NCBI GenBank assembly: GCA_947650285.1
Contig: CANTFL010000267.1
Coordinates: 1-64,000, forward strand
Reading direction: 5' to 3'
Origin: Hyaloperonospora brassicae
Lineage: Eukaryota > Oomycota > Peronosporomycetes > Peronosporales > Peronosporaceae
Length of the DNA stretch: 64,000 nucleotides
Numbering within the stretch: the stretch's first letter is position 1; each line of letters begins with the position of its first letter. A program made the translations under genes and the position numbers. The notes below the pieces were generated by a model, which saw only the letters and a list, made by a program, of their open reading frames with translations, made no database searches and had not been told where the DNA came from. Shown here one piece after another: positions 11,881 through 55,584 of this stretch.

Positions 11881-11899
11881 ATCTCCGTTGTCGACCATC

Positions 11900-20344: not shown

Positions 20345-21420
20345 ATACGCGATGTGAGCTCAGCAGACTTGAAAAAAAGGTGAAATTCTCGATGTTGTTA
20401 TTACAATCTGCCAGAATTATACAGAAGTTCGATGCAAGACCGCAGACACATAAGCAAGTACTTCTGCAAGTACACTAAAAACCAAGAAGCTTTTGAAGCT
20501 TCTTCACATTGACAAGGTAGTGACCAGTCGGTCATAGCCTTGATCGTTTCGGGATCACGACGTACGACGATCGTTCTCACGGTGCACCCAACACTTGGTA
20601 TTTTGCTCGACACAAAAAATACATTTTTTTAGATGGGCGCAAACATTATGCTTGCTCATAAGTTGAAGAACCTAACGAGCATGTGGTCTGTGAACCTTCA
20701 CGTCCGTCTTTACATCCATAGCCCGGCTATGGACGAACACATTGTCACGGGTATATCGGTGCGAAATCCTGCACCATTATTAATTGATTTGTCACACATC
20801 TGTTGTATGTATCATGGGCGTTACTTATCCCATGTGGCATCTTTAGCTACTCCCACAGCATACCGCTTGTGGTGCTTACTGCTGTGTACGGGATCTACCG
20901 TTTATGCGTGATGATCTGATAGAATCCATCCATCAGATCCATGGACGATAAGATGGTAAGCTTAGACATACGATCGATGATTACGTCCTTCCTCGGTATC
21001 GGCGTCTGAGCCGGTACTCTTGCAGTATTCAACCTGTTGAATGCGTGCACTTTACGCCATCCTCTTGTGGCCTTTTGCACAAAGAAGATCGGAGAGCTGT
21101 TAGGAGAAGTTGATTTCCTGACATGGTCCGCTGCTAAGCGATCGGCAAAGAACTGGCCGATCGCTAGCACCTTTTAACGAGGCAGTGGTCACCGCTACAT
21201 GACACAGTACTTTGAGCCCGGTTTGAGCTCGATCTCGTGCCGAGTGCCTTTGTCCTTAAGCAACTCGCAAGGTAAGGATTCAGGGAACACATCCCTAAAT
21301 TCGATCAAATCCTTGTACGAAGAATTTGCCTGAAGTGACTCCCAGGATTGAGGCGTGTATCGCTCAATCCGAGTCTTCTCATCGAGTAAACTTTCTTCCA
21401 TCTATGAACTGCTGGTAACC
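20345..21420 (-). pseudogene. Reverse transcriptase fragment of element D
   Basis: Minus-strand pieces match element A RT. The N-terminal segment at 21195-21401 has FPESLPCELLKDKGTRHEIE. 20895-21170 has STSPNSSPIFFVQKATRGW, AFNRLNTARVPAQTPIPRKD and SSMDLMDGFYQI, which holds the first catalytic Asp. 20401-20613 has PETIKAMTDW from the connection. The frame in 20895-21170 is intact across the site where element A has lost a base. Frames break between pieces, and the YFDD region (about 20700-20760) is shifted (VHSPAMDEH reads on the opposite strand). Confidence 0.75.
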
Positions 21421-22199
21421 CGTTCATAATCATTAAACACCATTTACGACCGAATATCGGCTACATACTCATCCCATGTGACGAGTACACAGATCTGCTT
21501 GACTTTGCGACTACGTTGATCGCGCAAGAAACGTTTCGGTTCTAGCGTTGGCGATTGAGTTATCTCCGAAGTTAACTAAGGAGGCGCAATCAGATCAAGC
21601 GCATAAGCGCCCACGCTTGATTCGGCGTTGGCCAAGACGTTCAACGTCTCGGTTTCTTCCTGGAAACTTATTTCCACAGGTTGATTTGGGCTTGTCTGTT
21701 CAGGTTGCTGAGCGCCTAATCTCTCAGCAAGATGTTTATGAGAAATTCTTTTTCAAGCACGTGGGAGCTTACTTCCCTCGATATCTTATGACTGTGGCTG
21801 TGCAAATACGTTCAGGTAACCATCCTCTACATACGACTCTCCTGTCGACCTAGGATGACTACGTATGCCGTTTCTGAGCAGTCAGATTGTTTTTCCTAGG
21901 GTGATACCCGCAAGTCGTGCATTTATATTCCCTTTTAATTGACTTACTCGAATGGTAGGCATTCGGCGCTGCCTGTAAATCTGTATAGCTGCCGGGAGCT
22001 TGCTCCACTGTGTTCAGATCAGCTACACTGAGGTCTGTGCAGTCTTCCTAACGAACGTATCACAAGTGAGGTCATTATTCTCACTCGTCGGACACCCACA
22101 CGCTATAGAGCGCTCCTAGACGTTCATCAAATGAATATCTGATGAACAAGTTTCTGGCACCTCGACGGTTCGATTCTGACTATTTATCCTGGAGTAGTA

Positions 22200-22620
22200 T
22201 CTCATTAACCGAATCAATTATAGGATGACATTAAAGTTATCATCCAGATCCAGTACGGTAAAATCATCATCATAAAGTTTGCCATCTAACGTGTGGTGGA
22301 TTGCGGTTACACCTTTTTTTACATTTATCGATGTGCCTGTCACTAGATGTACCGTCATTCTCGTAAAAGGGATCTCCCGCTCAACATAGTTGAGTCTTTT
22401 AGCCTCTACTAACTGTCGACAAACGAAATTGTTTGACGCACCACAATTAACTTTGGCGCAAAGTGACAAGTCCTTCGTCTCTTCCAAGTCAAGGTGATGA
22501 GTGATTTCTCATCAATAGGTGCAGAGGCGCACAACCATTGTGTGTCTAAAGAAACGTTGTTCAAGAAATCTGAGAAGTCTCTTGATGTTGCTAGATCAGT
22601 AGGGCGCTCCGCTCCTAATG
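22200..22620 (-). pseudogene. Protease region of element D
   Basis: The minus strand reads AKVNCGASNNFVCRQ where element B has LVDCEASNNFV, then IPFTRMTVHLVTG and DDFTVLDLDDNFNVIL (the strand before the usual ILG turn). The catalytic Asp is Asn here (VNCG), which would kill the enzyme. The upstream -1-frame peptide KWTGSLGAERPTDLATSRDF (about 22570-22630) is conserved with A and B, which supports reading into protease by frameshift. Confidence 0.7.
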
Positions 22621-23701
22621 AACCCGTCCATTTTTCAATTGTCCGCTTCGCTGTTTCGGCTTTGCAACGGCTTCGGACCTCTTCCTCCATTTCTCCGGGC
22701 TCGTCGACGGTCACTGCGCTCTGTACTACGAGGTTCTGAGCGGGAACCACAGCATTCATTTGCGTAGTGTCCTAGCTTTTGACAGCAATGGCATCTCAGA
22801 AATTGCTTGCCGCACGCAGGGAGAGATCTCTCGCTTCCAAGATGACAAAGATTCCTTCGCTCTGGACGTCCGGCTGCTGGTCGTCTATATGAACGATAAG
22901 GGTTCAACGTAGTGTGAGCCTGTCCCACACTAAAGCCTCATGATCCTCAGCTAAGATTACTTCTGAAAGCGTCTTCATGTCTCCGCGGAACAGTTGGTCC
23001 CTGACGGGGAAATCTTCAAGTCTTAAGATAAATATTGTGCTAAACTCATATTCACTCATAGAGTTCGCTACATTCCGATTTGCAAGGTAGCGTACATATA
23101 GGGCGTAAGGATGAACCTGACGCTTACCCTGTGTGAGTTGCAGAAGCTCTGATAGAGTGCTTAACTCTGCCCTTGGCGGTTCAAACGTTTCTCTGAGTAG
23201 GGTCTTAAAAATCCTTAACGACCCAAACACGTGTGGGTCGTGCACGTTGAAGTTCAGAACCCATTACCTGACGTTCCTTGCCAAGTATGACTGAGAAAAT
23301 GAGACTTGCATTTGCTTATCGTCAATGCGGCGACGGGTCTCGATGGCACCGTCTACCTTGACAAATTATCTTGACTGAGAGTCGTTCTCGGCTCCCCGGT
23401 ACACAAATATATCAAGCTTAAGAGCTTTCCGTCAACTATGACGCGTCGACTCTGCGGACTGAGACTGTTGTTGTCTAAGGGTTTCAGTCTGCTGGGGGTT
23501 CGTTGTTGCAACAATTTCACCTGCGCTCGTGACTCATCAAGTTCTCGTTGCAAGAACTTGCTAATGACGACATGCTGTCGGTCCCTTTCCCTTGAGGATA
23601 GCATGGCCCAGACAGCGTCTTTGCCAACGATCGAGATTATTTGTTTGATCACACTGCACTCGACACCGCATTAAAAGAAGTAGCTTTTACGACATGTTCA
23701 T
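22560..23701 (-). pseudogene. gag of element D
   Basis: The presumed start is MNM at 23701, followed at once by a stop. Pieces are 23353-23652 (VISKFLQRELDESRAQVKLL), 22904-23245 (TFEPPRAELSTLSELLQLTQ, then GKRQVHPYALYVRYLA) and 22635-22928. The last carries an intact Cx2Cx4Hx4C zinc knuckle, CHCCQKLGHYANEC, near 22740-22785. That knuckle shows the ancestral fourth cysteine which element A has lost. Confidence 0.75.
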
Positions 23702-24227
23702 GTTAGGCTTTGCGTTGGGTGTCCTAGGAGGGACTACAAAGTGCTATCAGGTGTTACGGGGCGCCGGCAACTACGTAATGAACTTAGAGTACGCATTGAA
23801 CTTTTATGGATAACATCAAAGGTCACTGCCCTTCCTAGGTATATGCACGATCCATAGGAAGGGTAAATGACTAAGTCAAAGACCCTAGTTGTAGAAAAAG
23901 TAAAATCGTTAAATTATACAACTAAGTCCAATATCTCTTGTTTTTTAATTTTACATCTTAATAATATTAATAGAACAAAATTATGATGACGTCTATTCGC
24001 CATTCAATGCACACTTCTAGCAGCGATTAATCCGTTGGTATAGACACAAAATCAACTACTGAGTAGACCTTTGTTTTATATTAAAAGTATAACCTATATA
24101 GCGAATAAATTATCAACACAATATTATTTGGAAATTGCTAAATTCACACCCCTTTTCCTTAAATTCACACCCTTCCTTCAAAAACATTTATATACAAGGT
24201 ACGCAATCGTCGTTAGAAAAATACGAG

Positions 24228-27895: not shown

Positions 27896-28286
27896 TGTAA
27901 CGGGGCACACCCTTGCGTAACTTAACGCAAGGGATTTGGGTGCCCCGACGGACGTACACGTGGCAAGCGAGGAAGCGTAGGCAGGGTAAAAGTAGAACTG
28001 TTGTATTAATAAATTAAGTCTTTAAACTACTGTCTCTTCGTTTGACTTAATTCAATTATACTAATATAACTGCATGTATGGTGACGTCTCGTCACCACTC
28101 ATTGTGCGCGTCTTGCGGCGATTGGAAGGTTGATATCATCACGATATTAACCAATGAACAGACCCTTTGGTCGACCCTTCAATATCACCACTTTGGTGAT
28201 ATTGTTTTAAAGAATATCCATCTTTATATTCTTTATTGTCACTTTCCTTAAAGTGACAATTTCATGTAACGGGCTGCCCCGTTACA
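27896..28286 (-). repeat. 3' LTR of element A
   Basis: The LTR is 391 bp, matching 35489-35879. It is itself a chain of perfect inverted repeats: 27910-27933 (9 bp arms), 28181-28203 (9 bp), 28235-28260 (11 bp arms, 4 nt loop) and 28266-28285 (8 bp), besides the 10 bp terminal inverted repeat. Confidence 0.95.
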
Positions 28287-28299
28287 TCACTCCCCCTTA
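28287..28299 (-). other. Polypurine tract of element A
   Basis: Read on the minus strand, TTAAGGGGGAGTGA directly precedes the 3' LTR start TGTAACGG. A purine-rich tract at this exact place primes plus-strand DNA synthesis. Confidence 0.75.
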
Positions 28300-28417
28300 A
28301 CTGATAGTCACCGTGTGACTATCGAAAACATGGAGGCCACCCGTTGGCCACCATTGGGACAGGGAGCACTTGTGGTGTCCGTTCCATTCACTTTCCGCTT
28401 GACCTCGCATAGTTAAC

Positions 28418-30026
28418 ATGTCTATGCGAGGTGACACAAGACCCACACAGCCTGGTGCTGTGCAATCCTCTGCGGCAGACGCTTCGTCGTCTGCCGCCCC
28501 TTCTTCGCCTGCAGCAACAGGTGCTGCAGGTGCACGCGGTATCACAACGCGTGCGCACGATGACCCTGATGTATGAGGTCATCTACTCTGGCGAGTCAGA
28601 CGTGTCTGACTCGGGCAATGCTCCAGAAGCGTCTCGCTCACCGGCGACGCCTCAGTATTCGCCAAGACCACTGCCGAACGAACGGACTCGTGATTTGCAT
28701 CACAGTCTGTTCGGCAGTGATGATGATGATGATCAGGGTGGTGAGTTCTATTCTTCACCACCGCCGGCTCGTGCGTCTTCGCACGAGCGTGATGACGATG
28801 GCGCGAGCCGTCGTCAATCTGGGAGCCGTGGTACCGACAAGGGTACCACTGTGAAGCGTGATGAGTTGAAGCCGTGGCGTTTGCCCGAACAACTCATCAA
28901 TAGCCTGTCTCACTAGACAGGCCAACACCATCGAATACCCTTATTCGATGCAACCGAGCTTCACGGCTTGAGTTCCAGCGCGAAGAACTTTCGCGCTGAA
29001 GAAGATTTTTATCTCGATGTCTTTCTTAGACATCGATGGTACAACAGCAACCAAAAGCGTGACAAAACATCGCTTTTGGCTGCGTGGAACGCGTTCGTCC
29101 AAAACGTAAAGAATTTTGGACGAGAAGGGTGGCTCAAGAAACTTGAGGCAACACGCCTCAGGTTCGAACGGCGAACGCCAACCGGTGCTAGGTACCGGTT
29201 GCATTGTTTATCGAGTGAGGCAGGCATTCCTTGCCTCACATGGGGAGACTCTTGTGCGAGTTGTGTTGACAACTCGCAGCGTGCACATAGGGATGTGTAC
29301 TCCCTAAATTCGCCCTGGGGAAGGGCACACATCTCGGAGGAGATGCGTGACGCGATTGCAAACTTGCAATCCGTCTACAAGCGCCTAGGGCGCGTGTTTA
29401 CCGATGGGCCACAGGACTCATCGGATGGGTCTCGTCATACTGGCGGACGAGACCTTCAACATCCATCAACAGCTGAGAGCGGGGCTCCCAGCTGTTCCAA
29501 GAGGGTGGATACCCCCGCCACTGGACGAGGTAGCTCGTCCTTGATCCTGAATCGTCACGGTGATTCAAGATACGCTCCACTAGAAAGCGTTGATCATCGT
29601 GAGCATCCACCAAAGGATGTGGTGGAGGAGGAAAGACCTCCTTCAGATGATTCGACTCACCATCTCGACCCTTACGAGATGGATCGCGCAATCGATGAAT
29701 TGCGCAATGACTTGAAGCACGAGCGCAATCGGCGCTACGCTTTGACCGATACCGTGCGGAAGAACCGCAAGGGTCACGAGGCTGATCGGTCGAGGGATCG
29801 CGCCGATTATGCCACGGCGCAGCTTCAGGTCGAGCGGGATGTCCGCTCCCTATTCGGCGAGCTGGCGACAGCTCGCGGGGAGATATCTCGGTTGAATGCC
29901 GAGGTATCATATCTGCGCGACCAGACGGATCGTCTGGAGCGCGAACGCAAGAACTTGATGGATGTTCTTGAACGTGGGGGCTATCTTCATCAGAAGAAGA
30001 AGGCTCGTACTGACAGTACGGCCTGA
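28418..30026 (+). pseudogene. Antisense accessory ORF of element A
   Basis: On the strand opposite gag-pol, a coding frame of about 535 codons starts at MSMRG (28418), about 130 bp from the 3' LTR, and ends at 30026. Its last 630 nt overlap the chromodomain gene. It is broken by one extra base near 28567 and a TAG at 28914-28916; element B lacks both lesions and reads through. Regions: Ser/Ala-rich start, acidic patch (SLFGSDDDDDQGG), a conserved block (FYLDVFLRHRWYNSNQKRD, AAWNAFVQNVKNFGREGW), charged linker, and a C-terminal coiled coil (EISRLNAEVSYLRDQTDRL, then RERKNLMDVLERG) with basic tail KKKARTDS. The family is unknown. Roles such as nucleic-acid binding or modulation of sense expression are only inference. 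Confidence 0.75.
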
Positions 30027-30605
30027 GCCTCCTCACGTAAAACGTAGGATGCGTGCGCATCCTACGTTGCAATTCGAGTGTGTATGCATTGCCCTTGCGA
30101 TGCAACACTCGAAATGGCCCAATGTATTTCGGCAGTAGTTTGCTACTGCCGACACTAGTGACTGCATGTCCAGGTAGGTTTACCGTTGACAGTAGTACTA
30201 GGTCGTTAACCTTAAATAAAAGAACATTTGCTCTTCCATTCTTGTCTGCGTTCCGTTTCTGAAGGTCCACCGCATTTGCGATGGAGTCCTGAACGAAACG
30301 AACTACCGCTTCTCGAGTCAGCAGGAAGTTCTCTGCTGACTCTTTGTTTTGTCTGGCAGTGCGCTTCGTGCGCACTGCTAAGAGATTGCTCTCTTCTTCA
30401 GCGAGGTTGTCTTCTTCCTCGCTGACATAATCGTTGGCGATGCTGAATATACCAGCATCGTCATCATCATCCGAATCAATAGTAGCGTCGCCGCTATTAT
30501 TGAGGTGATCTTCTTCATCGATGTCGACTTGATCGACATCGGCATCATACGTGACGACGTTTGCGTCGACACGTGATGAGCAAGAGCCAAAACGGTTGTT
30601 GCTCG
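29398..30605 (-). pseudogene. Integrase C-terminus and chromodomain of element A
   Basis: The frame is open from about 30605 to 29398 but is one base out of step with the integrase core; element C lacks the extra base near 30590, so it is a mutation. An acidic stretch (DSDDDDDAG) comes first. Then the GPY-like module follows with NDLVLLSTVNLPG, SKLLPKYIGPFRVLHRKGN and HPTFYVRRLRPY. An unstructured Arg/Ser/Pro linker follows, then the chromodomain with [20 protein letters not shown] and NSWEP, ending VRQYDETHP. The last part lies opposite the antisense ORF. Confidence 0.85.
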
Positions 30606-31732
30606 AGCGAGTCCCTCCCCCTTATCCAAGAGTTACACTCTATAAGGGTGGGCACTCGTGGATGGCGTAGGCCATTCACGTAAAACGGTGTGTGCTGTGT
30701 TGAAGCATGCACCGAATTATTGATGGCGAATTCCACCATGGGTAGGAATTCGCTCCAACTCGGAAACGAGTGGACATATCCTCGAAGAATCTCTTCGAGG
30801 ACACGGTTCGCACGTTCCGTCTGACCATCTGTTTCTGGATGGTCAGAAGTGGACATCTTCAATCGTGTTCCGAGAGTACGGAACACGGTTTGCCAAAATT
30901 CCGCCGTGAACCGAGGGTCACGGTCGGATACGAGTTCACGGGGTAACCCGTGGAGTCTAAAGACCGTGTCTAGAAAGACACGAGCACAACCTTGAGCCTT
31001 GATTGACTCAGGGACAGCAGCAAGATGGACCATCTTGCTGAATCGGTCTACAAACACAAGAATACCATTATTCTTGTGAGCGTCTTCGGGAAACCCGAAG
31101 ACGAAGTCCATTGAAACGGACTGCCAGCACTCTGTCGGAACAGGCAGAGGCTGCGATGGCGCACGGAATGAAGTACTAGGCTTCACCCGTTGACAAATTT
31201 CGCAAGCACGTATGTACTTGCGAACAAACTGATACTGGCGGGGCCAGTAAAAGTCACGACTTACCGTGAGGTAAGTCTTTTCCCTTCCACGATGGCCGCT
31301 TGTTGGGGCATCGTGACACTCGTACATGATGCGCAACCGCAAATCATGATGAGCGGGTACGACGACACGAGGCGTGTCGTCGGCAACAGCTGTATAGTAC
31401 AGCAATCCGTTGCGTGTACTATACCGATCCGATGAGGATCGGTACAAAGCCGGGAAATCCCTCATGGATGTACTGGATGGATTCACCAGATGATCCATCA
31501 ATCGCAGAAGATCCTCATCTTCCGCGTATGCCTTTCGTACGTCGTCAAGTAAACTTGACGACGGGACACTGACTGACAGTGTCGAAACAGTGGGCTTATC
31601 CTCACTGTTGGATTGTGCGTCCGGCTCGAAATCGGGCCGGCGCGAAAGAGCATCCGCGACGACATTGAGTCGTCCCGGTTTATACTCCACGGAGAAGTTA
31701 TACTCCGCGAAGATAGACAGCCACCTCGCCAT
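30590..31732 (-). pseudogene. Integrase core of element A
   Basis: The frame continues that of RNase H after a TAG. The link YKPGRLNVVADALSRRPDFE is typical of Gypsy elements. The zinc-binding HHCC motif reads HDAPTSGH and CEICQ about 30 residues later. All three catalytic residues are present: SMDFVFGF, LVSDRDPRFT and DGQTERANR. So the catalytic core itself is intact, but a one-base insertion near 30590 removes the chromodomain and the upstream TAG removes the join to RT. Confidence 0.9.
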
Positions 31733-31738
31733 TCTTTG

Positions 31739-32749
31739 CTAGAGGTGTGGGCTGTTTACGGCCGTGCGTAATGACGCATGGTCCGTGTAGACAACAAACG
31801 GTCTATCTCCCAAGAGATAGACGCGAAACTTAGCCAGTGCGTATTTCATGGCAAGGAGTTCCTTGTCATGCACTGGGTAATTGCGCTCAGCTGCCTGCAA
31901 CTGGCGCGACTGATAACAGATGACGCGCTCCGCGCCATCTGCATCGAACTGCATTAACGCACAGCCGATTGCGAAATCGCTGGCGTCACAGACCACATGA
32001 AATGGTCTGTCCTGATCTGCAATCGCCAAGATCGGCGATTGCATCAAGCTCTGCTTGATACCTTCAAAGGAACGCTGGCACTCAGCGTTCCATGACCACT
32101 TGACATTTTTCTTGAGCAAGCAAGAAAGATGAACAGTCATCTCGGCGTAGTTGCGCGAGTACTTGTGCAAGTACGCCGCAAGACCAAGGAACTTCCTTAG
32201 TCCCTTGACATCGACTGGCACTGGCCAGTCGGTGATCGCCTTGATCTTTTCGGGATCAGGGCGTACGCCGTGTTTACCCACGATGCACCCAAGAAGTGGT
32301 ATTTCGCTAGCCGCGAATATACACTTCTTGAGGTTGGCGTACATTTTATACTTGCGCATAAGTTGAAGAACCTGACGAACGTGAGTTCTGTGAACTTCAA
32401 CGTCCGTCTTCCCGTCCATAGCCCGGCTATGGACGAACACATCGTCGAAGTAACTCGGTGCGAAGTCTCGCACCGGTCTCAACAGATTTGTTACACATCT
32501 GTTGAATGTTGCAGGGGCATTACTCAGCCCCTGTGGAATCACTAGCCACTCCCACAGCATCCCGCTGGGGGTACTCACTGCCGTGAACGGGACGTCCCGT
32601 TCACGCATCAGGATCTGATAGAATCCATCCATCAGATCCATGGACGAAAAGATGGTACTCTTTGACTTACCATCTATGATAACGTCCTTCCTCGGTATCG
32701 GCGTCTATGCCGGTACCGTTGCAGCATTCAATTTGTCGAATGCGTGCAC
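31739..32749 (-). pseudogene. Reverse transcriptase palm and RNase H of element A
   Basis: The open frame at 32641-31739 has SMDLMDGFYQI-type first catalytic Asp, IPQGLSNAPATFNR and the active site SYFDDVFVHS (YFDD). The connection PEKIKAITDWPVP and LRKFLGLAAYLHKY follows. RNase H shows CDASDFAIGCAL (Asp), YPVHDKELLAMKYAL (Glu) and VVYTDHASL (Asp). It ends at TAG 31739-31741, where elements B and C have other codons (Ser or Thr), so a single substitution splits RNase H from integrase. The upstream junction is broken by one lost base near 32778. Confidence 0.9.
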
Positions 32750-33700
32750 TATCCGCCATCCTCCTGTGGCCTTTCGCCACAGAAGATCGGAGAGCTGTGA
32801 GGGGATGTTGATTCCCTCACATGGCCCGCTGCTAAGCGATCGGCAAAGAACTTGTCGATCGCTAGTACTTGTTCACGAGGCAGTGGCCACTGCTTCATGA
32901 CACAGTACTTTGAGCCCGGTTTGAGCTCGATCTCGTGTCGAGTGCCTTTGTCCTTAGGCAACTCGCAAGGTAAGGATTCAGGGAACACATCCCTGAATTC
33001 GATCAAATCCTTGTACAAAGGATTTGCCTGAAGTGACTCCCAGGATTGGGACGCGTATCGCTCAATCCGAGTCTTCTCATCGAGGACACTTTCGTCCATC
33101 GATGAGCTGCTGGGAACCCGTTCGTTCTCAGCAAATACTGTCGCCGACCGAATATCGGCCACATACTCATCCTCTGTGACGAGTATGCAGATCTGCTTGA
33201 CTTTACCACTACACAGATCACGCAAGAACCGTTTCGGTTCTAGCGTTGGCAACTGAGTTATCTCCGAAGTTAACTTCGGAGGCACAATCAGATCAAGCGT
33301 ATAAGCGCCTACGCTTGATCCGTCGTTAACCAAGACGTTCAACGTCTCGGTTTCTTCCTGGGAACTTCTTTCCACAGGTTGCTGAAGGCCTAATCCCTCA
33401 GCAAGTGACTCTTGAGGAATCCCTTCCTCAAGTACGTGGGGACTTATTCCCTCGACGTCTTCCGACTGTGGCTGTGCAACCACAGTCAGGGACCGATCCT
33501 CTACGGTCGACCCTCCAGTCGACCTAGGATTTCCATGTTGCCCTTTGGGGGCAACAGGTTTCTTTCTGTCTAAGATGCTGCCCGCTAGGCATGCATCCAT
33601 GTCCCGGTCCACTCGACTTATTCGAGTGGTGGACCTTCGGCGCAGCCTGTACTCCTGTACAGCCGCCGGGAGCTTGCTCCACAGTGTAGTGATCAACTAC
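32749..33700 (-). pseudogene. Protease-RT linker and RT fingers of element A
   Basis: The frame spans 33696-32749. A Gln/Ser/Glu-rich linker is followed by LPTLEPKRFLRDLCSGKVKQ, then the Gypsy RT N-terminus FPESLPCELPKDKGTRHEIE, PLPREQVLAIDKFFADRLAA and STSPHSSPIF. It then loses the frame: one base is missing near 32778 relative to B and C, so CVRKATGGW becomes CGERPQEDGG and stops. The lost base turns an imperfect inverted repeat into a perfect one (CTGTGGC and GCCACAG round GAAAG). Confidence 0.85.
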
Positions 33701-34309
33701 ACTGTGATCTTGTGTAGTCGTGCTAACGACCGTACCGCAAGTGAGGCCATTGCACTCACTCGCAGAACATCCACACGCTTGTGGACGCTCCAAGATGTTC
33801 ATCAGATGGCCATCTGATGAACAAGCGGCAGGCATCTTCACGGATCGATGCTGCCAGCTCACCCTTGGCTCGTACTTTCTGAGCCAAGGTAATCCCAGGA
33901 TGACATCAAATTTGTCATCCAGATCCAGTACGATGAAGTCATCATCGTACTGTTCGCCCTCCAACGTGTAGTGGATTCCGACTACACGTTTCTCAACGGT
34001 TATCGATGCGCCTGTTGCAAGGCGCACCGCCATCCTTGTTAGGGGAATGTCGCGCTCAACGAACTTGAGCCTACGACCCTCTAGTGACTGGCGACGAACA
34101 AAGTTGTTCGACGCCCCACGGTCTACAAGGGCACGAAGCGACAAATCATTTGTCGCTTCCAACTTCAAGGTGATGAGCGAAACGTCATCACCAGGTGCAG
34201 AGACACGCAATGATTGTGTATCTGGAGCAACTTTCGTCAAGAGATTTGCAAATTCTCTTGAGGTTGCTGGACCAGTAGGGCGCTCCGCCCCTACTGACCC
34301 CGACCATTT
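33524..34309 (-). pseudogene. Protease of element A, entered by -1 frameshift
   Basis: The frame is open from the slippery site (about 34309) through SGSVGAERPTGPATSREFAN and TKVAPDTQ to 33524. The retropepsin active site reads LVDRGASNNFV, and a downstream FDVILGLPWL is the usual hydrophobic-hydrophobic-Gly turn. The active site is D-R-G; B has DCE, C has DCG, D has NCG, so the family ancestor was probably DCG rather than the usual DSG or DTG. The frame differs from that of the RT linker beyond about 33700, so either a base has changed there or the proteins were separate. Confidence 0.8.
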
Positions 34310-34312
34310 TTT
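34273..34312 (-). promoter_or_regulatory. Probable -1 ribosomal frameshift signal between gag and protease
   Basis: On the minus strand the slippery heptamer A AAA AAT (34312-34306) is in register with gag (TCA AAA AAT). After a 9-nt spacer a perfect stem-loop follows at 34296-34273 (arms CAGTAGGG/CCCTACTG, 8 nt loop). The -1 frame from here is open into protease in A and conserved as peptide in B and D. The heptamer is also present in B at 41698-41704. Gag itself ends soon after, by TAG at 34293-34291 in A. Slippery run plus spacer of 5-9 nt plus stem is the standard -1 signal of retroelements. Confidence 0.7.
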
Positions 34313-35444
34313 GATGGTCCGTCTCGCTGTTGCGGCTTCGCAACAGCGCTGGACCCACGCCCATTGCCCTTTCTGGCAAATGGTCGTCCATTTCGCTCAG
34401 TACTGTTTGGTACTGGGCGTGGAGCACTATACTCGTATGCGTAGTGCCCTAACTTCTGACAGCGATTGCACTTCTGCAATCGCTTGTTGTTTGTAGAGCG
34501 AGGTCTCTCGCTCTCAACATAGCAGAGGTCCATTGGTTCTGGACCTCCGATCTCTTGTCGTCTCGGTGGACGATAAGAGTTTGAGCTAGCATGAGCCTGC
34601 CTCATGCTAAAGTCTTCCTGTTCCGCGGCTGATATCGCTTCTTCAAGCGTATTCAGCTCATGGCGGAACAGGTGGCTCCTGACGGGCCCTTCTGCGAGCC
34701 CTTGCATGAACACCGTAATCAACGTGTGTTCATGTACTGGGTTGGCAGTTATACTACTCGCAAGGAGTCGTATATGTTGTGCGTAAGCGTGCACATCACG
34801 CTTACCCTGCTTGAGTTTCAGGAGCTCTGAGCGAGCCCTGAACTCAGCACGTGGCGGCTCAAACGTTTGTCTGAGCCGGGACTTGAAGTCATCTAGCGAC
34901 CTAAACACATTTGGGTCGCTACTCTCGAGTCCCAGGGACCAAGTTTTGGCACGCCCTGCCAAGTGGGTCTGAGCAAATGTGAGTTTCATTTGCTCATCTT
35001 CGACGCGACGAGCCCTTAGGGCTCTGTCGAGTTCGACAAACCATAGTAACAGGGAGGCCTCCGGGACTCCACTGTACTTGGAGATGTCGACTTTCATGAC
35101 TTCGGGACGACGCGCATGCGCCGTCCCGCCCACAGCAGCATGGAATTGCTGCTGTCTCAACAGCTCCGTCTGTTGAGCACCGAGTTCTCTCAACTGCTCG
35201 GCCTGTTGAGAGCCTTGCTGGTGAAGCAAGGCTACTTTCTCCCTTCGAGAGCAAGTTCATTCTGAATGAACTTGGCGATAGCGGCATGTTGTTGGTCTCT
35301 GTCTAGAGACTCCAACATGGTGCTGACGACGAGTTCGCCTACGGTAGAACTCATTCGTTCTACCGCACCCCATTCGATGTCACTCAAATGGGTAAACCCT
35401 TCACGCGTGGCGTGAAAGGTGTCTTCTTCATCCAACATGTTCAT
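34291..35444 (-). pseudogene. gag of element A
   Basis: It starts MNMLDEEDTF at 35444, 44 bp inside the 5' LTR. A helical N-terminus (DRDQQHAAIAKFIQNE) leads to a Gln-rich stretch. The gag domain has LLWFVELDRALRARRVED, LAGRAKTWSLGLE and TFEPPRAEFRARSELLKLKQ. A nucleocapsid with knuckle CNRCQKLGHYAYEY and an Arg/Gly-rich tail follows. One base is missing near 35232 relative to element G, splitting the gene. The fourth zinc ligand is Tyr, although D and B have Cys, so RNA packaging would be impaired. It ends TAG at 34291 where B has CAG. Confidence 0.85.
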
Positions 35445-35470
35445 GTTGGATGATGTGGTCCTTGGAAGGA

Positions 35471-35486
35471 CTACAAAGTGCTACCA
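35471..35486 (-). other. Primer binding site of element A
   Basis: TGGTAGCACTTTGTAG on the minus strand lies two bases inside the 5' LTR. The starting TGG pairs with the CCA end of a tRNA. The same 16 bases follow the 5' LTR of element B (40558-40573), and D has one change. I could not assign the tRNA; it does not look like the initiator methionine type. Confidence 0.65.
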
Positions 35487-35488
35487 GG

Positions 35489-35879
35489 TGTAACGGGGCA
35501 CACCCTTGCGTAACTTAACGCAAGGGTTTTGGGTGCCCCGACGGACGTACACGTGGCAAGCGAGGAAGCGTAGGTAGGGTAAAAGTAGAACTGTTATATT
35601 AATAAATTAAGTCTTTAAACTACTGTCTCTTCGTTTGACTTAATTCAATTATACTAATATAACTGCATGTATGGTGACGTCTCGTCACCACTCATTGCGC
35701 GCGTCTTGCGGCGATTGGTGGGTTGATATCATCACGATATCAACCAATGAACAGACCCTTTGGTCGACCCTTCAATATCACCACTTTGGTGATATTGTTT
35801 TAAAGAATATCCATCTTTATATTCTTTATTGTCACTTTCCTTAAAGTGACAATTTCATGTAACGGGCTGCCCCGTTACA
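35489..35879 (-). repeat. 5' LTR of element A
   Basis: 391 bp, about 98% like 27896-28286 by eye. In the element's direction it starts with the family palindrome TGTAACGGGGCAGCCCGTTA and ends GTGCCCCGTTACA. It should hold promoter and transcription start, but no TATA box could be singled out. Confidence 0.95.
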
Positions 35880-35884
35880 GTGGG

Positions 35885-40117: not shown

Positions 40118-40555
40118 TGTAACGGGGTAGCCCGTTACATGAAAATTATCTTTAAGAAGATATTGACAATAGAGAATACTACGTTGAATATTCTTTCAAC
40201 AGTATCACAAGCACGGTGATATTGTTGGGATGACCGAAGAGTCTACTCATTGGTTGATATGCGATGATGTCAATCCACCAATCGCTGCTAGACACGTGCA
40301 ATGGGTGGTGAGTAGACGTCATCATACGTTAATTACATAAGTATAATTAAGTCAGAACAAACAGAGATACACGAGTTATAGGACTAAATTATATTAAAAC
40401 ACTTTTACGTTTCCTACGACTAGAGCCTTTCACCTTAGTCGTTCTATCTTCCTCTGTGTATTTCTACACCTAGCTGGGCACTGACTATCACTACAGTCAG
40501 TGATAGTAAACTACTCAATGGTTGACTAGTACGGAGTCGTCGGTGCCCCGTTACA
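40118..40555 (+). repeat. 5' LTR of element B
   Basis: 438 bp, TGTAACGGGG...CCCCGTTACA. Its start is the palindrome TGTAACGGGGTAGCCCGTTA. It is paired with 47398-47835. Confidence 0.95.
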
Positions 40556-40557
40556 CC

Positions 40558-40573
40558 TGGTAGCACTTTGTAG
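40558..40573 (+). other. Primer binding site of element B
   Basis: TGGTAGCACTTTGTAG two bases after the LTR, identical with the site of element A. Confidence 0.65.
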
Positions 40574-40605
40574 TCCGTCCTAGGGCCACACTCGCATTGC
40601 CCAAC

Positions 40606-41775
40606 ATGAACATGTTGGACGAAGTCGAAGGCGGCAGCTTTCACGGAACCCGTGAAAGCTACTCTCTTTAAGCGATATCGAATGGAGTGCGTTCGAACGA
40701 ATAAGTTCGACTGTTGGCAAAGAAGCTATCTGGGCCATGCTATCCACAAGGGATATAGACCAGCAACATGTCGTCATCAGCAAGTTCGTGCAACGAGAAC
40801 TTGATGAGTTGCGAGCGCAGGTGACCTTGTTTCAACAACAAGATCACCAGAGGAACGAAGAACTGAGACAGTCTCAGTCCGCGCAGTCGACACGGGAGCG
40901 TCGGCCGGGGTCTCTAAAGATAGAGATCTCCAAATATCACGGTACAAATACGACTCCCTAATAAATTGGTTCGTCAAAGTCGACGATGCCATCGAGGCCC
41001 GTCGCATCGACGATGAGCGAATGCAACTTGCATTCGCTCAGTCGTATTTGGCAGTGGACGCCAGGAATTGGGCCCTGAATCTCAAGTTGCACGACCCAAA
41101 CGTGTTTGGGTCGTTGAGGATTTTTAAGACCCTGCTCAGCGAGACGTTTGAGCCTCCCAGGGCAGAGTACAGGACACTATCTATAATCCTCGGAATCATG
41201 CAGGGTAAGCGTAAGGTTGAAGCTTACGCTCAGCATGTACGCTACCCTGCAAGCTGCATGGTCGTGAACCCTGTGAATGACTTTGTGTTGATCACAATCT
41301 TTATTTAAGGGCTGTCCGATGTTCCCGTCAGGGACCACCTGTTTCGCGGAGAGCTAAAGACTCCCTCCGAAGCAATCTTCGTTGCGGAGCAAGAAAATTA
41401 TAGTGTGAGACAGTCTCACGCTACGTTGACCCCTTTTCGTCCGCAGAGACGATTAGCAGTCGGATGTCCAGAACTAATGGACCTCTGGAATGTCGAGGGC
41501 GAGAAACCTCACCCTGCGAATGACAAGCAAATGGTGAGATGCCATCGCTGTCATAAACTATGACACTACGCATATGAATGCAGTATCCCCTGTTCAGAAC
41601 CTCGCGGTTCTGAGCGCAGTAATCGTCCACCAGTAAGAAAAACTGGCGGGCGAGGGTTCGATACTGTTGCAGAGCCGCAACAGCGAGACCAACCATCAAA
41701 AAATGGTCGGGGTCAGCAGGGGCGGAGCGCCCTACTGGTCCAGCAACCTCAAGAGAATTCGCAAATCTCTTGACG
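40606..41775 (+). pseudogene. gag of element B
   Basis: The start is MNMLDEVEGG. A stop at about 40675 and frame changes separate it from QQHVVISKFVQRELDELRAQ (from 40737). The core follows at 41021-41308, with LAVDARNWALNLKLHDPNVF, TFEPPRAEYRTL and GKRKVEAYAQHVRY, ended by TAA. The nucleocapsid reads CHRCHKL-stop-HYAYEC near 41540-41585, keeping all three Cys and the His. The tail ends with the slippery AAAAAAT at 41698-41704 and gag would stop at TGA 41773. Confidence 0.8.
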
Positions 41776-42160
41776 AAGGTTGCTCCCGACACGCAGTTCC
41801 TGTGTGTCTCTGCACTTGGTGATGAGGTGTCTCTCATCACCTTGATATTGGAAGTGACAAAGGACTTGTCACTTCGCGCCCTTGTTGACTGTGAGGCGTC
41901 GAACAACTTTGTTTGTCGCCAGTCGCTAGAGGCAGGAAGTTTCAACTTCGTGGAGCGGGAGATCCCTTTAACGAGAATGACGGTGCGTCTAGCGACAAAT
42001 TCATTGATCACTGTGAAGAAACGTGTAGTCGGAATCCACTACACGTTAAAAGGCGAACAGTACGATGATAATTTCATCGGACTCGACCTGGATGACTAGT
42101 TTGATGTCATCCTAGGACTACCTTGGCTCAGGAGATACGAGCCAAGGGTGAGCAGGCAGC
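41698..42160 (+). pseudogene. Protease of element B
   Basis: In the -1 frame relative to gag the peptide reads SGSAGAERPTGPATSREFAN and continues into the open frame 41770-42099. The active-site segment is LVDCEASNNFVCRQ: D-C-E in place of the likely ancestral D-C-G, which should abolish activity. TAG at 42097-42099 interrupts LDLDD-FDVILGLPWL. The linker to RT (42161-42700) is recognisable (LPTLEPKRFFRDLRSRKVKQ near 42475) but broken. Confidence 0.8.
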
Positions 42161-42614
42161 ACCGGTCAGTTACGATACATGCTACTTGTCCTCAGATGAC
42201 GATCTGAAGAATGTCTTGGAACGCCCACATTTACGTGCGTGTACTACGAGCGAGTGCGATGGCCTCACTCGTGGTACGGTCGTTAGCCCGACTGTACAAG
42301 AAAACAATCTAGATGATCACTACATTGTGTAGAAGGCTCAACTGGACCCTATAGATATGACTTACCAGGAAGTAATCGAGACATTGAATGTATTGGTTAA
42401 TATGGATCAGTCGTGGGCACTTACACGCTAATCTAATTGTGACTCCGAAACTAACTTCGGAGATAAATCAATTGCCGACGCTAGAACCGAAACGGTTTTT
42501 TCGTGATCTGCGCAGTCGCAAAGTCAAGCAGATCTGTGCACTTGTCGCGGAGGACGAGTACGTTACCGATATTCGATCGGCAACGGTGTTTATTGAGACC
42601 AAGAGGGTTCTCAG

Positions 42615-43970
42615 CAGCTCATCGATGGACGAGAGCGTCATCGATGAGAAGACTCAGATTGAGCGTTAAACGTCTCAATCCTGAGAGTCGCAAATATTAA
42701 TTTGATTGTATAAGGATTCGGTAGAATTCAGGGATGTATTCCCTGAATCCGTACCATGCGAGTTGACTAAGGATAAACGCATCCGATGCAACATCGAGCT
42801 CAAAACGCGCTCGAAGTACTGTGTCATGAAGCAGTGACCACTGCCTCGCGAGCAAGTACTAGCGATCGACAAAGAATTTGTCGATTGATTTACAGGGGCT
42901 ATGTGAGGGAATCAACCTTCCCTCAAAGCTCTCCGACCTTCTGTGTGCGAAAAGCCACAGGAGGATGGCGGATAGTGCACGCATTCAACAAGTTGAATAC
43001 TGCACCGGTACCAGCTCAGACGCCGATACCGAGGAAGGACGTAATCATAGATGGTATGTCAAACAGTACATTCTTCTCGTCCATGGATCTGATGGATGGA
43101 TTCTAGCAGATCCTAATGCGTGAACGGGACATACCGTACACAGCAGTGAGCACCCCCAGCGGTATGCTGTGGATGTGGCTAGTGATGCCACAGGAGCTGA
43201 GTAATGCCTCTGCAAAATTCAACAGATGTGTAACAAATCTGTTGGGACCGGTGCGGGATTTCGCATCGAGCTACTTCGACGATGTGTTCGTCCATAGCCA
43301 GGCTATGGACGGGAAAACGGACGTTTAAGCTCATAGAGCTCACGTTCGTCAGGTTCTTCAACTTATGCGCAATCATAATTTGCATGCCAATCTCAAGAAG
43401 TGATATTATCGCGTCAAGCGAAACACCACTTCTTGGGTGCATCGTGAGTAATCACGGCGTACGCTCTGATCCCGAAAAGATCAAGGCGATTACCGACTGG
43501 TCTGTGTTATTCGATGTCAAGGTACTTCGAAAGTTTCTTAGTCTAGCGGCGTACTTGCACAAGTACTCGCGCAATTAAGCCGAGATGACTGTGCATCTTT
43601 CTTGTTTACTCAAGATGGCTATGAAGTGGTCATGGAACGCTGACTGTCAGCGTTCGTTTGAGGGTATCAAGCAGATCTTGATGCAATCGTCCATAATGGC
43701 GATTGCAGATCGAGACAGACCTTTTCATATGGTCTGTGACGCCAGCGATTTTGCGATCGGCTGTGCGTTGATGCAGTATTACACAGACGGCGCAGAGCGC
43801 TTCATCTGATATCAATCTCGTTAGCTGAAACCAGCTGAACGCAATTACCCGGTGCATGACAAGGAACTCCTTGCACTGAAGTATGCACTGGCAAAGTTAA
43901 GTTTTATCTCCTCGGAGATAGACCGTTCATCTTATATACGGACCATGCGTCACTACGCACGGCCGTAAAC
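42615..43970. repeat. Inverted, nearly identical tract, arm 1 (in element B)
   Basis: Matches the reverse complement of 51985-53285 with only a handful of differences by eye, including shared stop codons and a shared deletion in RNase H. At both edges similarity drops to the level of the rest of B and C. The two arms point towards each other across about 8 kb. Confidence 0.8.
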
Positions 43971-44040
43971 AGTCTACACCTCTCGCAACGAATGGCGAGA
44001 TGGCTGTCTTTCTTTGCGGAGTACAACTTCTTCGTGAAAA
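42700..44040 (+). pseudogene. Reverse transcriptase and RNase H of element B
   Basis: Pieces: SPTFCVRKATGGWRIVHAFN (about 42935-42995), FSSMDLMDGF (about 43075-43106, then TAG), VMPQELSNASAKFNR (about 43185-43230), active site SYFDDVFVHS (about 43270-43300), PEKIKAITDW (about 43470), CDASDFAIGCAL (RNase H Asp, about 43735), LHDKELLALKYAL-like Glu region near 43855 and YTDHAS near 43935. A shared short deletion near 43900 and many stops are also found in element C. 42615-43970 is nearly identical with an inverted tract in C. Confidence 0.85.
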
Positions 44041-45170
44041 ATGAAACCAGGACGACTTAACGTCGACGCTGATGCGCTATCACGCCGGCCCGATTTCGAG
44101 CCGACAACACGCGCCAACAGTGAGGCCTTGCCCACTGTTGCAGCACTGTCAGTCAGTGTGCCGTCATCGCCTCCACCCGATGACGTGCGGAAGGCATACG
44201 CGGGGGATATGATTCTCCTTCGTTTGATGGGTCACCTTGCGATCCCTTCCTATAAATTCTCGTCGGATTTGCCGGCTCTATACCGTTCCTCTTTGTATCG
44301 GTACATGACTCGCAATGGCCGGCTGTACTACACAGCAGTTGCCGACGATACAACTCGTGTCGTCGTTCCCTATCATGATGATTTGCGTTTACGCATCATG
44401 TTGGAATGTGACGATGCGCCCTCAGGCGGGCATCGTGTTAGGTAAAAGACCTACCTTACGGTAAGTCGTAACTTTACTGACCCTGCCAGTATTAGTTCGT
44501 GCGCAAGTTCATTCTTTCTTGCAAATTCTGTCAACGGGCGAAGCCTAGACCTTCATCCCTTGCGCCACTACAACCTCTGCCGGTCCCGGTAGAGTTTTGG
44601 TAGTCTTTTTCCATGGACTTTGTCTTCGGGTGCCCCGAAGACACTCACAATAATAATGATATTTTTGTGTTCGTGGATCGTTTGAGCAAGATGGTGCATC
44701 TTGCTGCAGTCTATAAATGGATCACTGCACAAGGCTGTGCGCGTGTCTTTCTCGACACGGTCTTAAGACTCCACAATTTACCCCGTGAACTTGTATCCGA
44801 CCGTGACCCTCGGTTAAGGTGGCGTTTAGGCAATCCTTGTTCCGCACATTGGGAACACGGTTGAAGATGTCAACCTCTGATCATCCCGAAACGGATGGTA
44901 AGACTGAACGAGCGAACCGTGTCCTCGAAGAAATTCTTCGTGGATACGTCCACTCCTTTTACATTGGAGTGAGTTCTTGCCAAAGGTTGAGTTCTTGCCA
45001 AAGGTTGAGTTTGCCATCAACAACTTCGTGAATGCGTCCACAAAGTATACACCGTCCTACTTGAATGGCTTACGCCGCCCACGTATTCCCGTTCTCATAC
45101 AGAGTGACTCTGAGTTAAGAAAGGGAGGGACTCGCTCGAGCAAAATTCGGCTAGCTCTTGCTCATCACGT
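44041..45170 (+). pseudogene. Integrase core of element B
   Basis: GRLNVDADALSRRPDFEP opens the region, as in A. The zinc-binding part has ECDDAPSGGH and CKFCQ (about 44400-44535) with the first His lost (DDAP for HDAP). Catalytic motifs are SMDFVFGC (about 44610), LVSDRDPR (about 44790) and DGKTERANR (about 44900). A short deletion near 44815, a stop at about 44862 and a small tandem repeat (GAGTTCTTGCCAAAGGTT twice, about 44970-45005) break it. Similarity continues into VEFAINNFVNAS. Confidence 0.8.
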
Positions 45171-45179
45171 ATAATTTCA

Positions 45180-46308
45180 CATGCCGATACGCTTGATGTC
45201 GATGTCGGTAATGCCGACATCGACGCAGTCGACTCTAGCAGTAGCGACGACGCTGCTGCTATATCAGACAATGATGACGATGCTGGGATATTCAGCATCT
45301 TCAACGACAATGCCAGCGAGGGAGAGGACACCCTCGCTGATAAAGAAAATACCCTCCTAGCAGTTTGAACAAAGCGCACTGAAAGACACAACAACGAGTC
45401 AGCAGAGAACTTCCTTCTGACTCGAGAAGCAGTAGTCCGTTATGTCCAGGACTCCATTGCAAATGCGGTGGACCGCCAGAAACAGAAAGCAGACAAGAAT
45501 GGAAGAGCAAATGTGCTTTCATTTAAAATTAATGATCTAGTGTTACTATCTACGGTAAACTTACCTGGACATGTAGTCACTAATGCCGGCAGTAGTAAAC
45601 TACTGCCGAAATACATAGGTTCCTTTCGTGTGTTGCTCCGAAAGGGCAATTCATGCACGATTGAGTTGCCGCGCTGAATGTGCACTTATCCCACGTTTTA
45701 TGTTGTTCGTCTCCGCCCGTACTATTAGTACGAGGCCTCTTGCGAGAACGGAGACAGCCGGCATGCTCAAGAATCCTCAACAGATTCTTGTGATCACGGA
45801 CCAAACACTCAAGTTGGTCCTTCAGCGACGCGGTCTCGCGACGAGCCGCCTCTAGCTCGTCGCGCAAACGATGCTTCTCGCGTTCGCTATCGCGTTGAAA
45901 GAATGCGAAATACGATCGGCATTTCTCCCGACCGTTACGGAGACGTCGTACGGACGCCAGCAAGTCGTGTCACATCGTATTCGTGATCGACGTCCACCCT
46001 TAACTCGGTCAGGTAATGCTCATGGTTACTCGCAGTCTCCTGCAGGCCCGGCGGTTGAGCCGGCCCTTGTCTTTCCACATCCACCGAAATCAATGGTGGA
46101 TTTCCACGGTGGTCAACGCTTTCACGTGGGGAGTATCTTGAGCCACCGCGTGAATAATGGGGAGCGGACAAGTTACCTTCTCCGCTGGCGTGGGTATCCA
46201 CCATCGTATGACAGCTGGGAACCTTATTCCCAGAAGATAGATGACGTTGAAGGTCTCGTCCGCCAGTATGACGAGACCCATCCGATGAGTCCTCGGGATC
46301 ATCGGTAA
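45180..46308 (+). pseudogene. Integrase C-terminus and chromodomain of element B
   Basis: An acidic region (45200-45360) leads to NDLVLLSTVNLPGHVVTNAG and SKLLPKYIGSFRVLLRKGN (about 45525-45655). HPTFYV-like sequence follows at about 45690 in another frame. The open frame 45871-46308 ends with a chromodomain: FHVGSILSHRV, SYLLRWRGYP and DSWEP, then VRQYDETHP. The 3' half lies opposite the antisense ORF. Confidence 0.8.
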
Positions 46309-47268
46309 ACACGCGCCCTAGGCGCTTGTAGACGGATTGCAAGTTTGCAATCGCGTCACGCATCTCAGCCGAGATGTGTGCCCTTCCCCAGCGCGAATCC
46401 AGGGAATACACGTCCCTATGTGCACGCTGCGAGTTGTCCATACAACTCGCACAAGGGTCTCCCCAAGTGGGGCAAAAAATGGCTGCCTCACTAGACAAAC
46501 AGTGCAACCGGTACCCAGCATCGGTTGGCGTTCGCCGTTCGAACCTGAGGCGTGTCGCCTCAAGTTTCTTGAGCCACCCTTCTCGTCCAAAATTCTTTAC
46601 GTTTTGAACGAACGCGTTCCACGCAGCCAAAAGCGAGGCTTTGTCACGCTTTTGGTTGCTGTTGTACCATCGAAGTCTAAGGAAGACATAGAGATAAAAG
46701 TTTTCCTCAGCTCTAAAGTTGCTCGCGCTGGGATTCAAGCCGTGAAGCTCAGTCGCATCGAATAAGGGTATTCGATGGTGTTGGCTTGTCTCGTGAGAAA
46801 AGCCATTGATGAGCCGTTCAGGCAAACGTCACGGCTTCAGCTCATCACGCTTCGAAGTAGTACTTTGCCGTTACCACGGTAATCAGTATGACGACGGCTC
46901 GCGCCATCGTCGAATCGCTCGTGCGAAGGCGCACATGTTGATCGCGGTGATGAGTAATCATACTCATCATCACTGCCGAACAGACTGTGACGCATGTCGC
47001 GAGTCCGTAAGTTCGGCAGGTCTCTTGATGAAGGAGGCACCACATGTGAGCGCGATGCCTCCAACGACTTTTCCGAGTTAGACACATCTGACTCGCCAGA
47101 GTAGCTGACCCCTAACTCGGGGTCACTGTATGCATGAGGTGCGATACCACATGCGCCTGCAGCAACACCTAATGCAAACTGAGAACGGGCAGAAGGCGAC
47201 GAGTCGTCTGCCGCAGAGGCGGGCGCAGCAACACGCTGTGTCGGCTTTGGGTCACCCCGCATAGACAT
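45690..47268 (-). pseudogene. Antisense accessory ORF of element B
   Basis: The ORF starts MSMRGD at 47268, 130 bp from the 3' LTR, as in element A. Pieces are 47268-46837 (acidic SLFGSDDEYDY), 46825-45935 (NFRAEENFYLYVFLRLRWYN, AAWNAFVQNVKNFGREGW) and 45963-45690 (coiled coil EREKHRLRDELEAARRETAS, basic tail SRKRPRTNS). Lesions are one lost base near 46865, TGA near 46830 and a frame change near 45950. They differ from those in A, and each copy is open where the other is broken. That pattern means the common ancestor had an intact ORF. Confidence 0.75.
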
Positions 47269-47397
47269 GTTAACTATACGAGGCAACGTCAGAATGAATG
47301 AATGTGACCAACAAGTACTCCCCGTCCCGTTTGTATCCAACGTGTAGCCATATTGTTTCGATAGCCACACGGTGACTATCAGATAAGGAAGGGGTGA

Positions 47398-55540: not shown

Positions 55541-55584
55541 GAGGTGGTCGTGGTCGCTGAAAGCACTACAAAGTGCTACCAGGT

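Follow-up and report, generated by a model that had tools for sequence, protein, structure and literature searches.

The window analyzed here comprises the first 64,000 nucleotides of contig CANTFL010000267.1 from the oomycete Hyaloperonospora brassicae (GenBank assembly GCA_947650285.1). Within it, on the minus strand, lies a complete Ty3/Gypsy long terminal repeat (LTR) retrotransposon, element A (27896..35879), recognized from repeat counts, its LTRs and Pfam domains, in which hairpins occur throughout. In sense order, A consists of a 5' LTR with the ends TGTAAC...GTTACA and seven hairpins (35489..35879, minus); open reading frames (ORFs), all on the minus strand, for gag (34291..35256; Pfam Retrotrans_gag, E 4e-16), aspartic protease (33524..34396; RVP_2, E 1e-8), reverse transcriptase (RT) and RNase H (31739..32704; RVT_1, 5e-24, and RT_RNaseH_2, 3e-34), integrase (30545..31738; Integrase_H2C2, 5e-21, and rve, 2e-9) and the C-terminal part of integrase with a chromodomain (29398..30621; Chromo, 2e-13 (1.5e-13), and SH3_Tf2-1, 6e-13); an ORF on the opposite strand (28413..30026, plus); and a 3' LTR with six hairpins (27896..28286, minus). 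Comparison of the two LTRs gives 98.2% identity. A purine-rich tract, AAGGGGGAGTGA, identified by eye, precedes the 3' LTR in the sense direction, and the flanks, also read by eye, hold a 5-bp target duplication, GTGGG (27891-27895 and 35880-35884). Near-identical LTRs, TG...CA ends, the target duplication and the order gag, protease, RT, RNase H, integrase identify A as a Ty3/Gypsy LTR retrotransposon, and the chromodomain at the C-terminus of its integrase, detected with Pfam, places it among the chromoviruses.

Element A contains 99 perfect inverted repeats with arms of at least 8 bp and loops of 0-12 nt, compared with 1.33 on average, and never more than 6, in 300 dinucleotide shuffles; with loops of 0-15 nt the count is 103 against a mean of 1.4 in 30 such shuffles. 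Measured against synonymous-codon shuffles that preserve both protein and codon usage (50 per ORF), arms of at least 8 bp number 13 versus 0.5 in integrase, 11 versus 0.4 in RT, 13 versus 0.5 in protease, 13 versus 0.5 in gag, 11 versus 0.5 in the chromodomain ORF and 20 versus 0.7 in the antisense ORF. A preliminary description of this DNA had named eleven inverted repeats, counted about twelve between 29041 and 29460 and claimed that the tiling continues through LTRs, gag, pol and the antisense ORF. All 11 named repeats are exact in position, with arms mostly of the length given and a few 1 bp longer (29095-29123, for example, has an arm of 10); 12 perfect repeats are found in 29041-29460 with arms of at least 6 bp and loops of at most 15 nt; and each of eight parts of A, LTRs included, carries 10.7-17.9 hairpins per kb. 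The counts against shuffles, the folding of both strands and the inspection of other genomic copies that it had proposed likewise come out in its favor, and we regard the hairpin tiling of element A as real beyond reasonable doubt.

A typical hairpin in A has an arm of mostly 7-11 bp and a loop of 3-10 nt and recurs about once per 60 bp. For loops of 0-12 nt, arms of 5 to 14 bp number 106, 42, 31, 30, 30, 22, 12, 3, 1 and 1, with 63, 15, 4.0, 1.4 and 0.1 expected for arms of 5 to 9 bp; the longest, at 33796..33823 in the repeat scan, has an arm of 14 bp and a loop of 0. Loops of 3-10 nt predominate, with a small residue at 21-23 nt. Arms end sharply, complementarity being 0.35 and then 0.21-0.27 over two to seven bases past the arm, and imperfect hairpins are frequent and above expectation. 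Arm and loop lengths are anticorrelated at arms of at least 7 bp (rho -0.31 in A, -0.42 and -0.49 in its relatives C and D described below, +0.04 in random sequence), and spans therefore vary less than expected; in a further copy, L034, rho is -0.08 at arms of at least 7 bp and -0.40 at arms of at least 8 bp, and another, L021, has no anticorrelation. The mean span itself (23.9 nt, standard deviation (sd) 3.3) is uninformative because similarly chosen random hairpins average 23.7 nt. The pairs closing the loops are G-C 46, A-T 31, C-G 28 and T-A 23, and loop composition follows no common rule as an indicator of strand. Hairpins that pair third codon positions with each other make up 9 of 47 in one count and 11 of 53 in another, for which synonymous shuffles give about 30%.

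Folding energies reflect this organization on both strands. In 150-nt windows (53 per strand in A), the mean z score is -5.29 on the plus and -5.43 on the minus strand. The corresponding plus and minus values are -4.8 and -4.5 for L034, -2.8 and -2.95 for C, -1.9 and -2.1 for D, -1.2 and -0.75 for relative B, -1.7 and -1.6 for a second Ty3 family, L039, and -0.07 and -0.34 for positions 8001-18000 of the window.

Three relatives of A in the window, delimited by alignment and repeat counts, share the tiling: B (20454..24169, minus; partial, 71% identity to A), C (40118..47835, plus and thus opposite to A; 71-79%) and D (49105..55838, minus; 76%). With arms of at least 8 bp and loops of 0-15 nt, they contain 10, 44 and 32 repeats against 0.9, 2.1 and 1.7 in 30 dinucleotide shuffles, as the preliminary description had maintained. 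Arms of at least 8 bp are not enriched over dinucleotide shuffles at 36000-40100 (0 versus 0.9) or at 6000-20000 (3 versus 3.0), and 36001-40000 lacks enrichment at any tested arm length.

Copies elsewhere were sought in the genome assembly (100.6 Mb, 898 contigs). The region 28968-30026 is 98-100% identical in the 40 scored of 1681 candidate places, and the RT protein is 97-100% identical in 124 scored of 6213 candidates, many of the 124 lying inside open frames of 1339-1666 amino acids; judged from sequences this alike, the A family has been active recently. The same hairpins are present in 20 copies across 17 contigs. Contig C40 was sampled at regular intervals in 20 stretches of 10 kb (L021-L040), 200 kb in all. 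Any 1-kb bin of this sample that has at least five hairpins falls on DNA of the A family, solo LTRs (L029, L030) and the 94.5% copy L034 among it. No relatives were confirmed in viral contigs.

The hairpins are largely shared by descent. Counting a hairpin as intact when all pairs are kept or at most one is lost, those defined in other copies are intact in A in 64/65 cases for L034, 16/23 for L025, 29/39 for C, 25/30 for D, 17/22 for L021, 9/10 for B and 35/45 for the copy L041. The reverse fractions, A hairpins intact in the others, are lower: 78/90, 22/54, 40/95, 25/81, 25/77, 10/48 and 40/73 in the same order. Such an asymmetry would be expected of ancestral hairpins that the active lineage retains and dead copies lose by decay; some turnover of hairpins must also have taken place. 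Comparing A with its copies gives stems an apparent 15-fold conservation, a figure that was disregarded, since A's own mutations are necessarily missing from hairpins defined in A. When A serves only to place the stems and the other copies are compared among themselves, stems diverge less than the remaining sites in 15 of 15 pairs (for C and D, 0.222 versus 0.276).

Changes on both sides of a stem that preserve pairing exceed expectation from 2000 shuffles: 19 versus 6.5 for A-C, 15 versus 4.2 for A-L025, 22 versus 6.2 for C-D, 17 versus 5.3 for C-L034 and 15 versus 4.1 for L025-L034, counts reached in none of the 2000 shuffles in any of these five comparisons. The excess has p < 0.05 in 11 of 21 comparisons, many of the changes being single events that recur in several of them. 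For L041, 16 of 20 double changes against A preserve pairing (3.3 expected), with 16 versus 5.3 against D and 15 versus 3.0 against L034. In the three pairs of copies listed, each compensation concerns a lone base pair, through a GC-AT swap or a transversion, and a hairpin has from one to three of them. A sole candidate for the rewriting of a whole arm is the hairpin at 31392..31424, with several base differences in its right arm in L034, C, D and L021. By eye, none of the clustered changes in the single copies L010, L018 and L019 is clearly templated by the adjoining arm. Inherited positions, isolated two-sided changes and lower stem divergence thus favor selection on pairing over the writing of palindromes in one step, and on these comparisons the hairpins are probably maintained by such selection, with compensatory changes preserving part of their pairing.

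Variation among young copies was followed in 20 copies of 27894-31526, a non-random sample picked by similarity to A and reduced to 19 by exclusion of A itself. Variants shared by at least two copies fall on 12 of 868 stem sites, 5 of 277 loop sites and 68 of 2486 other sites; the private variants number 32, 18 and 163 for the same sites. Taken by region, stem depletion reaches significance only in the stretch occupied by the antisense ORF alone (9/331 versus 63/654, p 4e-5). Outside stems, private variants prefer third codon positions (0.098 versus 0.056 and 0.067), and part of them have therefore already passed through selection.

Mismatches within stems bear on which nucleic acid is the target, since selection on sense RNA alone predicts that G.U is tolerated and A.C is not. 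In A, single mid-stem mismatches read on the sense strand are G.U 30 and A.C 26 at arm 9, and 51 and 54 at arm 7. L041 has 9 of each, and L034, counted on the opposite strand, has 22 and 23. Mismatches fixed in at least 15 of the 19 copies (arm 9) are G.U 7 and A.C 12 in the sense orientation. Because G.U and A.C are equivalent in A, sense RNA alone is an unlikely target, and the force acting in A is blind to strand.

Tiling extends beyond the A family, at a different scale. The preliminary description had found it in A to D and not in two further elements, H and F, for which it gave no coordinates, or in unique DNA. A Ty3 element at 47..2467 (plus), located by hairpin counts and protein matches to A, is probably its H; arms of at least 8 bp are indeed absent from the ORFs of this element that match A, whereas positions 1-2500 carry 31 perfect hairpins of 5 bp with loops of 3-5 nt against 7.4 expected. 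Element L039, with an RT 65% identical to that of A in amino acids, has 117 hairpins with an arm of exactly 5 bp (37.6 expected), with loops mainly of 3-5 nt, and 112 perfect hairpins combining 5-bp arms with 3-5-nt loops (17.7 expected); its three listed ORFs together contain one arm of at least 8 bp. Confinement of the tiling to A-D therefore does not stand, and its absence from unique DNA does, host DNA in the sample being free of it. For 68 ORFs of at least 220 amino acids, the number of 5-bp hairpins was divided by that in synonymous shuffles; the ratio is at least 2.37 in 22, and 20 of these belong to A-family copies, to L039 or to the 1-2500 element; the remaining two have low counts (5 versus 1.8 in L033, 6 versus 2.5 in L032). 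The other 46 have ratios of at most 2.01; they include host genes and three ORFs, at 1.33, 1.12 and 0.90, from another LTR element (L025:640-4618), which has protease, RT and integrase.

Stems of A and L039 coincide no more than by chance (97 shared sites versus 82.9, sd 14.2), and the two families therefore seem to have acquired their tilings separately, with no fixed position required. Decay as the only source of the short arms in L039 is unlikely given the 117 exact 5-bp arms against 37.6 expected. Arms of at least 7 bp in L039 number 0 versus 1.3 at 1-3000 and 5 versus 1.6 at 3001-6000, and its best 40 copies are 94-100% alike. Hairpins pairing third codon positions are 24 of 101, against 28% in shuffles. 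In L039 (1-6000) the pairs closing 5-bp hairpins are mostly pyrimidine-purine (C-G 48, T-A 34, G-C 18, A-T 12), a distribution that differs from that of A. Across five ORFs, A and L039 have identical amino acids at 140/277 stem codons, defined by two or three stem bases, and at 432/864 codons free of stem bases.

We consider the best overall explanation, with a probability of roughly 0.45, to be selection on self-pairing that shields both RNA strands from intermolecular pairing. An active lineage would be under selection for locally self-paired nucleic acid, both strands alike in A. Sense and antisense transcripts would fold on themselves at once and so become poor intermolecular partners, both for host small RNAs of 21 and 25 nt and for one another across the antisense gene. 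Expression of the opposite-strand gene, if it occurs, would add RNA complementary to the element's own transcript, and hairpins on two strands should slow sense-antisense annealing. Short arms should stay under the cutting range of Dicer, for which arms of 5-14 bp are expected to be too short. A family that improves its self-pairing would evade silencing and multiply, and dead copies would decay. Shielding, as the use to which the hairpins are put, is offered tentatively. A more complete scenario is rather unlikely to hold as a whole: small-RNA pressure would have recoded the entire sequence, mostly by synonymous and compensatory change, until both RNA strands became hairpins too short for Dicer yet able to block 21/25-nt guides and strand-strand pairing, with the 5-bp and 9-bp families marking stages in an arms race, and two-strand shielding being explained by the antisense gene.

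Several published observations bear on this explanation. Small RNAs of 25 nt in Phytophthora derive chiefly from transposable elements (PMC3804510), those of Hyaloperonospora peak at 21 and 25 nt (PMC7297541), and viroids have been argued to fold as an escape from silencing (PMC3185485).

Other results weigh against selection for shielding. In maize, structure accompanies more small RNAs, not fewer (PMC10760457). Ten of the 21 comparisons between copies have no significant compensatory excess, and of seven further comparisons that involve L041, the four with B, C, L021 and L025 have none either. Young copies show no significant deficit of stem variants in the LTR (5/136 versus 20/257, p 0.13), in the overlap of the antisense and chromodomain ORFs (5/120 versus 34/509, p 0.40) or in the pol-only part (34/399 versus 113/1101, p 0.38). 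In RT alone, stem codons are less conserved between A and L039 (36/66 versus 164/238). The innermost pair of L039 hairpins, read in the sense direction, is G.U in 30 cases and A.C in 6, with 8.2 and 9.1 expected. A 25-nt ruler for hairpin span is unsupported, given the random average already cited and spans of about 14 nt in L039; the anticorrelation of arm and loop is all that is left of it. Stems are depleted also of private, partly neutral variants, which a mutational process predicts likewise, and private variants that create pairs are weakly in excess (21 versus 13.5, sd 3.2), which leaves room for a mutational contribution.

The last two points belong to what we rank as the strongest rival, a copying bias. 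Here a strand that is being reverse-transcribed or repaired would fold onto itself at short inverted repeats, mismatches would be corrected by short-range template switching, and the hairpins would last without serving any purpose. Perfect arms, strand blindness and confinement to related retroelements all suit it, template switching has been reported to make and maintain hairpins (PMC8794818), and 31392-31424 resembles an arm rewritten in the A lineage. It fits poorly with compensations that are single pairs rather than blocks, with inherited hairpin positions, with amino-acid identity that is equal inside and outside stem codons overall, with the clusters in L010, L018 and L019 that are not clearly arm-templated and with the frequency of imperfect hairpins. 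We judge a copying bias unlikely, though worth retaining; of the palindrome-writing process that the preliminary description had entertained, the writing of whole arms is made less likely by the inherited positions, the isolated pairs and a protein identity that is equal overall.

Selection for the structure of sense RNA only, for packaging, translation or stability as in RNA viruses with ordered genomes, would explain the strong folding, the compensatory pairs and the innermost-pair bias of L039. That same pair is unbiased in the 1-2500 element (8 and 11), G.U and A.C are similar in A both in mid-stem and among fixed mismatches, and the two strands of A fold equally well, which together make this explanation improbable. 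The preliminary description had offered selection for structured RNA as a cause; selection on structure does fit best, but a sense-only purpose such as packaging is disfavored in A.

At the level of DNA, hairpins in single-stranded cDNA or cruciforms might help copying, integration or chromatin state, and strand blindness, the tiling of the LTRs and the lack of any sequence or position fixed between families agree with this. To our knowledge, however, no step requires hairpins along a whole element, and linear cDNA lacks supercoiling; we consider DNA-level selection quite improbable. Chance, base composition or an assembly artefact is as good as eliminated by the dinucleotide and codon shuffles and by the recurrence of these hairpins in 20 copies spread over 17 contigs.

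Should selection keep the hairpins element-wide, a transposon would inherit the shape of its nucleic acid as a genome-wide trait, selected beside coding at hundreds of sites, and hairpin size per family would offer a countable character by which to follow the arms race of transposons with RNA silencing. Palindromes written by reverse transcriptase would instead represent an extreme form of template-switch mutation shaping coding sequence.

Comparison with known systems sets A apart in several respects. In RNA viruses with genome-scale ordered structure, structure extends genome-wide at a cost in codon freedom. Element A resembles these genomes in a folding energy far below that of shuffled sequence along its whole length and differs from them in being a retrotransposon with perfect Watson-Crick hairpins that are equal on both strands and show no G.U preference. 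Viroids (PMC3185485) share with A the suggested purpose of self-pairing but are small, non-coding circular RNAs, whereas A is an 8-kb coding retroelement. Hairpins made by template switching (PMC8794818) have, like A, perfect stems and compensatory pairs; their hallmark is the multi-base rewriting of one arm, whereas nearly all compensations in A are isolated pairs.

Among open-licence papers, searched mainly by titles and the openings of abstracts, no retrotransposon of such build was found. The closest published precedent comes from the mitochondria of nematomorphs, whose coding palindromes (PMC6649704), like the hairpins of A, are perfect inverted repeats within working protein genes. The phase that pairs third codon positions is the rarest there, and in A the corresponding bias is at most weak. 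Nematomorph palindromes reach 284 bp, are mitochondrial, are gained and lost between species and have no excess of imperfect forms, for which reason the authors consider a conversion mechanism (PMC6649704); A has arms of 5-14 bp, is nuclear, inherits its hairpins, has imperfect ones in excess and tiles non-coding LTRs as well.

Within the oomycetes, Chronos, a Ty3 element with a chromodomain (PMC5348765), has the same order as A of LTR, gag, protease, RT, RNase H, integrase and chromodomain. Element A differs from it by the whole-element tiling and the antisense ORF; a search of the text of PMC5348765 gave no mention of hairpin, inverted repeat or antisense. Chronos also has a second RNase H of plant/archaeal type (PMC5348765), and none was found in A. 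The ORFs of A scanned with Pfam, a set that excludes the 315-amino-acid ORF at 32749-33696, contain no second RNase H family up to E 0.1. Pfam would be expected to reveal such a domain if present.

The antisense ORF of A, known from the ORF list and its homologues, is divided by a stop into two pieces (28413-28916 and 28917-30026) and overlaps the chromodomain ORF antiparallel at 29398-30026. It has 38 homologues of 41-95% identity from Hyaloperonospora, Peronospora matthiolae and ENA contigs, and its longer piece is 95% identical to an H. brassicae protein across 61% of its length. In UniRef, some of the H. arabidopsidis homologues go under the names 'RxLR effector candidate' or 'Core-binding domain'; these entries are probably transposon ORFs mislabelled as host genes. 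A structure model of one piece, predicted as a helical part with a long coiled coil (mean pLDDT 63.7), was not used. The plus-strand Ty3 element at 47-2467 may carry an antisense gene as well, since its chromodomain-like part is followed by minus-strand ORFs at 2051-3110; the antisense protein of A has no significant match to the ORF at 2526-3110 (E 0.27).

Further features of the window concern its other elements and its host DNA. A host gene at 37835-38791 (plus) with an RPAP1 N-terminal domain (E 1.8e-9) stands between A and C and has no hairpin enrichment. Positions 21000-22000 of B, despite its few hairpins, have a copy in contig C565 (1801/1806 bits, 100%), reflecting, on this match, either a recent duplication or a young copy poor in hairpins. 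C at 42416-44104 and D at 51805-53492 are 96% identical there and far less so elsewhere, which suggests recombination between elements. Additional pairs of direct repeats, at 8074-8743 and 19459-20130 (92%), 4694-5159 and 25894-26359 (97%), and 47947-48307 and 55663-56022 (91%), look like the LTRs of other or nested elements.

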